Assembly: GCA_025057275.1 (NCBI GenBank)
Contig: JANWXQ010000102.1
Span: 1 to 47,461, forward strand
Reading direction: 5' to 3'
From: Chitinophagales bacterium
GTDB lineage: Bacteria > Bacteroidota > Bacteroidia > Chitinophagales > UBA10324
Length of the DNA stretch: 47,461 nucleotides
Part shown: in pieces, positions 4,289 to 6,456 of the stretch
Numbering within the stretch: position 1 is the first letter of the stretch
How the letters are laid out: each line of letters begins with the position of its first letter
Translations under genes and position numbers: made by a program
The notes under the pieces: model-generated
The model's database searches: none
Told to the model about the DNA's origin: nothing
Seen by the model: only the letters and a program-made list of their open reading frames with translations

Positions 4289-5080
4289 ATGAAAATTGCT
4301 TTTGTCAAATACCACGGCGCCGGAAACGATTTTATTCTGACGTATGGAGGAAAAAAGGGCCTGGGCCTCCGTCCACAGCAAATCAGGAACCTGTGCCACC
4401 GGCAACTGGGTATAGGCGCCGACGGCTTTTTGGAAATCATGCGCACGCCTCAGGCAGATTTTGCCGTTCGTTACCACAATTCCGATGGCAACGTAGGAAC
4501 GCTGTGCGGCAATGGCAGCCGCTGTGCCGTTCACTTTGCCCGAAAACTAAAACTGTGTGGACGAAAGGCCCGTTTTCTAGCCGCTGACGGTTTGCACGAA
4601 GGCTATTTGACCCAGAAACGCACGGTCCGTATCAGCATCAGGGATGTACACCTTACCCCAAACACCCTCCCCCTGTTTGTGGACACCGGATCGCCTCATC
4701 TGGTTTTTCAGGTTCCTGACCTGGATGCCGTTGATGTGGAGCAGCAGGGAAGGCTCATTCGCTTCAGTGACGCCTATCGCGCCACCGGCGTCAATGTAAA
4801 TTTTATGAGCCTGGAAGATGGCCAGCTGCGCCTGCGCACCTACGAACGGGGGGTGGAGGCAGAAACGCTTTCCTGCGGCAGTGGGGCTGTGGCTGCAGCT
4901 ATTGCAGCAGCGGTATGGCGTAATCAGCAAGGGGCATCCATCCGGGTGCCGGTGGTTTCGGCCGGTGGTACTTTGGTGGTGACCTTCTCCAGGGAAAAGC
5001 CCGAATGGTTCACCGATATCTGGCTGGAGGGTCCCGTAGAACCCGTTTTTTCCGGAACAATTACCATTGGTAAAGCATGA
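4289..5080 (+). CDS. dapF: Diaminopimelate epimerase
   Basis: Converts LL-diaminopimelate to meso-DAP for lysine and peptidoglycan synthesis, in the cytoplasm. It has 263 residues from the ATG at 4289. The frame is open further upstream, but the protein proper starts at MKIAFVKYHGAGNDF, the typical DapF N-terminus, and a -7 box lies just before it. Both catalytic cysteines are present: Cys73 in GTLCGNGSRC and Cys196 in ETLSCGSGA, one in each half of the pseudo-symmetric fold. The last four bases overlap the start of the next gene (ATGA), so the two are translationally coupled. No anomaly seen. Confidence 0.97.
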   Translation: MKIAFVKYHGAGNDFILTYGGKKGLGLRPQQIRNLCHRQLGIGADGFLEIMRTPQADFAVRYHNSDGNVGTLCGNGSRCAVHFARKLKLCGRKARFLAADGLHEGYLTQKRTVRISIRDVHLTPNTLPLFVDTGSPHLVFQVPDLDAVDVEQQGRLIRFSDAYRATGVNVNFMSLEDGQLRLRTYERGVEAETLSCGSGAVAAAIAAAVWRNQQGASIRVPVVSAGGTLVVTFSREKPEWFTDIWLEGPVEPVFSGTITIGKA

Positions 5081-6456
5081 AAAGCCAATATCTCATCTTG
5101 ATTTTTGGTCATTTGCCGGTGGCCTATTGCGTTTTCTGGTTTACGGCCGTAATCCGAAGGATGTTTGGTGTCGCCATGCTGATCATGCTTCCCTATTTCG
5201 TTCAGGGACAATTGTTACCGACAATTGGATTGCATGATGTGCCCACTGCCGACGACAGCATTTGCGACATTCCGCTGCGGCTGCAGGGCAATTTTGATGA
5301 GCTGGGCTTTCAGGAAGGCAGCCCGGTTCCCGATTTTACCTTTTACGACATTTACAACAATCCATTTACCCTTTCTGCCGCTCTGAATCTGGGAAAGCCC
5401 GCCTTATTTATTACCTGCAGTTACACCTGTCCCGTATTTCGCGACCGGCTTTCCGCCATCAATGCCCTGCAAGCCCAGTTCGGCGATCAGGTGACCATTG
5501 TGCTCATCTATACCGTTGAGGCCCATCCCAAAGGCGATGTCAGTCCGTATTTTGGTTTTGAGAATGTATCAGCGGCCAACTATCAGGAAGGCATATTGTA
5601 CGGGCAGCCAAAGACCTATGGCGAACGCCTTAGCATAGTGTCCGACATGCTGGCCAACCTGCAGGTAAATGTTCCGGTGTATTTAGACGGCCCATGCAAT
5701 GAGTTTTGGGTCAACTATCAGTGCGGGCCGGTTACCGCTTATCTGGTGGATACCAACGGCTTATTGTTTTCCAAGCACGGTTGGTTTAACTCTTTTCCTG
5801 ACAACATGACCAATGATCTGTTGCTGTTACTGGGCAACCAGCCAACACCGGACGACAGTCTGGGCGGAAGCGTTGCCTTCAGCTTGATCGATGGCCCCTC
5901 TGCCGCCGTTGATCCTCAAGAGCCTGCTGTTTTCTATGGCTGGCTATACAATTCCGATTCCTCTGCCGGAGCGGTAGCAGAAGTTTTTAAGACCGCACAA
6001 AGGCTGCCGCAGGGTTGGTCGGCCAGCCTATGCACCGACATTTGTTATTCGCCCTTTCAGGATTACATCAGCGTTTACCTGCCTGCCGGCGACAGCGTCT
6101 TGTTTTCCCTGCATGTATACACCGCAACAGTTCCCGACTCTGCGGCCATCAGCGTTCGGTTTCGCAACCTTACCGACACATTGCAACAGCAGGAATTGGT
6201 GTTTCGGGTAACCACCCTGTCCCCACCGCCCCCCATGCCTGGTGTTTATCCCAATCCTGCTTCCGGTTTTGTAATCCTAACCGTTCCATCCCAACCCGAA
6301 TTAGAGAGCCAAGTCCGGATTTTTAACAGCAGCGGACGTGTGGTGTATGAATTTATCCCCCGAACTGCCGTTTCGGTTCTGGAGGTCAGCCACTGGCCTG
6401 CAGGATATTATGTTGTCGTGTTGGGGAATGCGCGCATACCGCTGATCAAGTTCTGA
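5077..6456 (+). CDS. Secreted deiodinase-like thioredoxin-fold protein with T9SS sorting domain
   Basis: A 459-residue secreted protein. The N-terminus is hydrophobic; an internal Met at residue 29 (5161) would give a cleaner signal peptide, but the ATGA overlap with dapF favours 5077. Residues about 78-250 form a thioredoxin-like domain opening with SPVPDFTFYDI. The core T-C-S-Y-T-C-P-x-F (Cys114, Cys118) and E-A-H-P (148-151) match the active-site region of iodothyronine deiodinases, with Cys where animal enzymes have selenocysteine. A middle region (about 260-385) looks like a beta-sandwich. The tail has a T9SS type-A sorting domain beginning PGVYPNPASG and ending in an AGYYVV strand. Likely an extracellular or surface redox protein; the substrate is unknown. 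SCO1- or peroxiredoxin-like activity is the main alternative. Confidence 0.85.
   Translation: MKSQYLILIFGHLPVAYCVFWFTAVIRRMFGVAMLIMLPYFVQGQLLPTIGLHDVPTADDSICDIPLRLQGNFDELGFQEGSPVPDFTFYDIYNNPFTLSAALNLGKPALFITCSYTCPVFRDRLSAINALQAQFGDQVTIVLIYTVEAHPKGDVSPYFGFENVSAANYQEGILYGQPKTYGERLSIVSDMLANLQVNVPVYLDGPCNEFWVNYQCGPVTAYLVDTNGLLFSKHGWFNSFPDNMTNDLLLLLGNQPTPDDSLGGSVAFSLIDGPSAAVDPQEPAVFYGWLYNSDSSAGAVAEVFKTAQRLPQGWSASLCTDICYSPFQDYISVYLPAGDSVLFSLHVYTATVPDSAAISVRFRNLTDTLQQQELVFRVTTLSPPPPMPGVYPNPASGFVILTVPSQPELESQVRIFNSSGRVVYEFIPRTAVSVLEVSHWPAGYYVVVLGNARIPLIKF

Follow-up and report, generated by a model that had tools for sequence, protein, structure and literature searches.

The iodothyronine deiodinases DIO1-3 (PF00837) are eukaryotic membrane-anchored enzymes with a thioredoxin fold and a selenocysteine (Sec) in the active site. 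For Dio2 the proton relay comprises Ser127, Thr129, Tyr157, Glu160, His162 and His182 (PMC11592359). Sec of DIO1 forms a selenenyl-sulfide with a cysteine that precedes it by two residues; for a second, distal cysteine, which follows 69-76 residues downstream of Sec, no role has been proven (PMC9141512). Deiodinase-like proteins of bacteria, some with Cys and others with Sec, go back to a 2005 report on the Sargasso Sea set, the accessible part of which does not describe them as cargo of the type IX secretion system (T9SS) (PMC1088965). They are still without known function (PMC13188914). Also comparable in part are PorA of Porphyromonas gingivalis, a protein of 246 residues (PMC7712824) in which an immunoglobulin-like sandwich precedes a type A T9SS tail, and the thiol-disulfide oxidoreductases of the TlpA/ResA type, which are extracytoplasmic, have a thioredoxin fold and carry a CxxC motif.

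Here we analyzed a stretch of 47,461 nucleotides from a Chitinophagales bacterium (the window). One of its proteins has a deiodinase-like head with Cys in place of Sec, followed by a PorA-N-like sandwich and a sorting tail. The features are as follows.

5077-6456, + strand: whole open reading frame, 459 aa, with signal sequence, deiodinase-like domain, PorA-N-like beta-sandwich and T9SS type A tail
5077-5208, + strand: N-terminal export signal region; the start is either ATG 5077 or ATG 5161 (Met29)
5263-5265, + strand: codon of Cys63, present in 50 of 50 aligned sequences, probable disulfide partner of Cys207
5311-5835, + strand: deiodinase-like thioredoxin-fold domain, residues 79-253 (profile NF038285 at 79-252; structure model closest to DIO3 and DIO2)
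5428-5430, + strand: codon of Cys118 (TGT) at the catalytic Sec position; in alignments with DIO3 and DIO2 it falls on their active-site residue
5518-5529, + strand: E-A-H-P, residues 148-151, which aligns with EAHP in DIO3 and DIO2 and contains the Glu and His that deiodinases use in their proton relay
5695-5697, + strand: codon of Cys207 in the motif D-G-P-C-N-x-x-W, present in 50 of 50 sequences from a search whose pattern required it, and in 15 of 15 in alignment A2, whose members came from profile and protein searches
5860-6234, + strand: PorA-N-like beta-sandwich (model pLDDT 96.6; PorA-N 6kjk is the top match in Foldseek and VIA-align)
6244-6429, + strand: T9SS type A sorting domain, residues 390-451 (Por_Secre_tail, TIGR04183)

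The open reading frame is real, and at its core lies a thioredoxin fold of the deiodinase-like kind. Full-length relatives share the architecture at 30-44% identity to the window protein. The initial annotation had correctly placed the reading frame, the core T-C-S-Y-T-C-P-V-F (residues 113-121, with Cys114 and Cys118), the E-A-H-P and the C-terminal sorting domain. In our view the protein is best explained, with a probability of about 0.7, as a surface-displayed T9SS cargo whose deiodinase-like head would use Cys118 as catalytic thiolate for a chemistry of the peroxiredoxin/deiodinase type. The surface-directed three-part form and its conserved features look new as far as the literature was searched, where we found no paper joining deiodinases, type IX secretion and Bacteroidetes; bacterial deiodinase-like proteins as such were already known.

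By far the best NCBIfam profile is NF038285, "deiodinase family protein" (1.2e-17), to which the Sargasso Sea proteins also belong. The score of 64.4 bits is below the curated cut-off of 250 for this model of 347 positions, only the last half of which (positions 177-344) is covered by the window protein; a search of 198 genomes of the phylum gave no protein that reaches the cut-off either. T4_deiodinase (PF00837) scores 18.3 bits with the window protein and 19.8 with the domain alone, short of the gathering cut-off of 27, which two relatives pass (30.0 and 37.3). For the single window protein the Pfam scores of T4_deiodinase, Redoxin and AhpC-TSA are about equal and all sub-threshold. Across 15 domain sequences of the family NF038285 matches all (best 6.7e-25) and T4_deiodinase matches 13 (best 2.9e-13); the best values of Redoxin and AhpC-TSA are 6.7e-7 and 2.6e-5. 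SCO1/SenC gave no Pfam match to the window protein up to E = 10, and an identity as SCO1 is rejected. Searched against PDB sequences, the window protein alone already finds mouse DIO3 first (E = 0.006); the family profile finds mouse DIO3 at 3.8e-8 and DIO2 next. The resemblance to deiodinases is thus well beyond chance. Neither SCO1 nor a redoxin matches clearly better: Redoxin and AhpC-TSA are weaker family-wide, in NCBIfam and in the structure searches. The family assignment proposed earlier is mostly right.

The predicted structure agrees. An AlphaFold2 model of residues 45-262 (mean pLDDT 93.8) retrieves DIO3 as the top Foldseek match (1.8e-9). With VIA-align, mouse DIO3 (4tr3) reaches Z 17.8 with 168 residues aligned at an rmsd of 2.9, and DIO2 (9h48) Z 17.3. 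The superposition on DIO3, together with the sequence alignment of both motifs, implies that Cys118 and His150 would lie at one site.

We aligned the window protein with 49 relatives. Invariant in these 50 sequences are Cys63, Glu148, His150, Pro151, Tyr181, Asp204, Cys207, Asn208 and Trp211. Cys118 is a cysteine in 49; the fiftieth, L129, has TGA in its place, the only such codon seen; the window gene itself has TGT. Thr117 is kept in 48 and Tyr145 in 49 of the sequences, and position 115 is Ser in 38 and Asn in 12. The window protein carries the nucleophile within S/N-x-T-(U/C)-P-x-F, followed by Tyr and Glu-x-His-Pro, and by these motifs we map the Dio2 relay to Ser115, Thr117, Tyr145, Glu148 and His150. 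Profiles, alignment and fold thus support what had been read from the motif, namely a putative active site of the deiodinase type with Cys at the Sec position. There are also differences to DIO1-3. The proximal cysteine of DIO1 and DIO3, two before Sec, is Tyr116 in the window protein, the loop after EAHP differs, and His182 and the Trp after EAHP of Dio2 are without clear counterpart. The CxxxC pair of Cys114 and Cys118 which the initial annotation had considered is rejected as a family feature, since position 114 is Cys in only 6 of the 50 sequences and mostly Gly (33).

The invariant cysteines Cys63 and Cys207, overlooked earlier and a difference to the Sargasso Sea proteins as they are described in the accessible part of the report, probably form a structural disulfide. 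Both are absent from three homologues outside the family, namely a lipoprotein (L166), a short protein that has no tail (L034) and L035, another deiodinase-like protein with a T9SS tail. This joint absence suggests that the two cysteines pair with each other and that Cys118 is the lone reactive thiol. Cys207, 89 residues after Cys118, would then differ in role as well as in spacing from the distal cysteine of deiodinases; as a resolving cysteine it is disfavoured by the joint loss, and a redox role would be the less likely alternative. At residues 246 (5812-5814) and 259 (5851-5853), 36 of the 50 sequences each have a cysteine which the window protein lacks, probably a disulfide that was lost here.

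We suggest that the protein could work in these following steps. Exported first, it would cross the outer membrane by means of its C-terminal sorting domain and be displayed on the surface, the PorA-like sandwich and the tail serving as the module for secretion and anchoring. Cys118, which takes the position of Sec in deiodinases, could then act as the one catalytic thiolate, with Thr117, Tyr145, Glu148 and His150 as proton relay, as conservation and alignment indicate. It may take an electrophilic atom from an extracellular small molecule, either a peroxide oxygen or the halogen of an activated organohalide. The relay would protonate the leaving group and, if Cys118 is the single reactive thiol, an external thiol would regenerate the enzyme. 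The Cys63-Cys207 disulfide would stabilise the protein and would suit the extracellular setting. The sequence fits peroxide and organohalide substrates alike; dehalogenation is possible, and peroxide reduction is at least as likely.

A possible selenocysteine form bears on this mechanism. In L129, from a Bacteroidales bacterium, an in-frame TGA (L129:5226-5228) stands at the Cys118 codon within S-F-T-TGA-P-K-F, in a family member which is otherwise intact, and the same TGA was picked up by a separate, independent search. Its genome encodes a tRNA-Sec whose anticodon is TCA, and two genes score above the cut-off for SelD. The assembly yielded neither SelA nor SelB; a frame of 655 aa among the matches of the SelB search is CysN/CysC. 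The RNA 3′ to the TGA folds no better than shuffled sequences and has no significant stem-loop. In this gene 40 of 454 codons are one substitution away from TGA, thus a random nonsense mutation or error could by chance strike such a codon about once in 40. The right codon, tRNA-Sec and SelD are present but neither SelA nor SelB was found, and so the Sec form is plausible, with about even odds, short of proof. If true it would be strong evidence for position 118 as the catalytic one. Its motif would be UPKF; in a recent list the bacterial Sec form appears as UxxC (PMC13188914). In the genome of the window no SelD over the cut-off was found. In a further genome we noticed an open reading frame of 758 aa (L157:2655-4931) which appears to be a fusion of a NifS-like cysteine desulfurase with SelD.

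A narrower form of our explanation is that the protein is a true reductive dehalogenase of the cell surface which removes iodine or bromine from environmental aromatics. The active-site pattern, which agrees with the deiodinases position by position in the alignment, and the possible Sec form of L129 are consistent with it. However, no halogen-related genes were found among the neighbours of the window gene or of its relatives at the loci examined, and the loop after EAHP is unlike that of the deiodinases. Moreover, Cys variants of the mammalian deiodinases are poor enzymes. We thus consider the dehalogenase unlikely. The more general statement, that the surfaces of several Bacteroidota carry a reductive dehalogenase of the deiodinase type, brought there by T9SS in a Cys and at least one Sec form, which strips halogen from extracellular aromatics, appears decidedly unlikely. 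Should the protein nevertheless be active on halogens, the deiodinase fold would be used without thyroid hormones.

Alternatively, the head could belong to the TlpA/ResA-type thiol-disulfide oxidoreductases, have converged on deiodinase-like motifs and act at the cell surface on disulfides in proteins. Folds of the ResA/TlpA/DsbE type do come directly after the deiodinases in VIA-align (Z 16.0, about 137 residues aligned), and MauD- and ResA-like models are the next profile neighbours (TIGR02661, 2.9e-5; PRK03147, 6.6e-5). Yet the models of MauD, ResA and DsbE match only some of the 15 domain sequences (best 2.9e-5), and deiodinase profiles and folds rank higher, the catalytic core of DIO3 and DIO2 being closest to the predicted structure. 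The window protein has C-P-V-F and no CxxC, the relatives have Phe, Tyr, Val or Trp at position 121, and Cys114 is not conserved; EAHP and the relay residues are conserved instead. A role of this type is in our opinion quite improbable. Least probable of all, a catalytically inert deiodinase-like domain serving as binding or structural head would fit the fusion to a PorA-N-like module and the DAHP found instead of EAHP in the lipoprotein homologue L166, but hardly the near-strict conservation of Cys118, Thr117, Tyr145, Glu148, His150 and Pro151 over about 50 divergent sequences, nor a single TGA in L129 exactly at the Cys118 codon. The gene of this lipoprotein (L166:1528-2085, - strand) lies in a single-contig genome and has no T9SS tail; Thr replaces Cys207.

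For the surface-displayed cargo which we favour, the C-terminal half is informative. Por_Secre_tail (34.8 bits, cut-off 27, 2e-8) and TIGR04183 (36.3, cut-off 23) are both over their cut-offs, and the genome of the window encodes the SprA translocon (2483 bits, cut-off 200). Sorting tail and SprA together make display on the surface well supported, and the action outside the cell that was proposed earlier is consistent with this probable location. The proposed fusion to a beta-sandwich and a T9SS tail is supported by the sorting profiles and the PorA-N-like fold. In the PDB comparison of the sandwich model PorA-N (6kjk) comes first, with 1.3e-6 in Foldseek and Z 12.8 in VIA-align (next match 10.9). 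There is no sequence match to PorA and the identity is 16%, so the relation would be one of fold only. The window protein differs from PorA by its N-terminal deiodinase head. Proteins that consist of sandwich and sorting tail alone, about 230-250 aa long, also occur in many genomes across the order, including that of the window, which has one. An example of such a counterpart to window positions 5860-6453 is found at G000 C90:7832-8398.

A pattern search from the single window protein gave nothing; an alignment-based search of the GTDB species genomes then gave 50 loci, from Chitinophagales, Saprospiraceae, Flavobacteriales, Kapaibacterium and other Bacteroidota, nearly all of them metagenome-assembled genomes. 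In whole-genome searches, members of this architecture turned up in about 15 of 298 genomes of the order; in a phylum-wide draw of 395 genomes they turned up in only a few. No neighbour family recurs widely around the relatives, except other T9SS-tailed proteins.

The initial annotation had further described translational coupling to dapF. The ATGA overlap on which this is based exists if ATG 5077 is the start. Of the 49 aligned relatives nearly all lack an equivalent of window residues 8-29; the N-termini of the relatives are mostly about 20-25 residues upstream of a conserved Q-x-L-x-P-S-I-G, and a start at ATG 5161 brings the N-terminus of the window protein closer to theirs. Among the loci with flanks dapF is upstream of the gene only in L118, which keeps the whole run degQ-dapF-gene-fmt-DUF1343-FtsX. 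The coupling is uncertain because in L118 the gene starts about 70 bp past the dapF stop and ATG 5161 leaves a similar gap in the window. A functional link to dapF is rejected, since only L118 shares the order and a relative of the same genus does not.

For the bacterial deiodinase-like proteins, on record for twenty years, no function is known, and an exported form with Cys, for which about 50 relatives are aligned here, offers a convenient way in. Its expression needs no selenocysteine machinery, direct assays are possible, and the residues that it conserves point to the shared parts of the deiodinase site. Some genomes carry the deiodinase-T9SS gene more than once: two nearby copies each are present in L112 (5001-5621 and 6429-7049) and L126 (5001-5606 and 6942-7547), and the genome of another relative, G004, has two to three copies.
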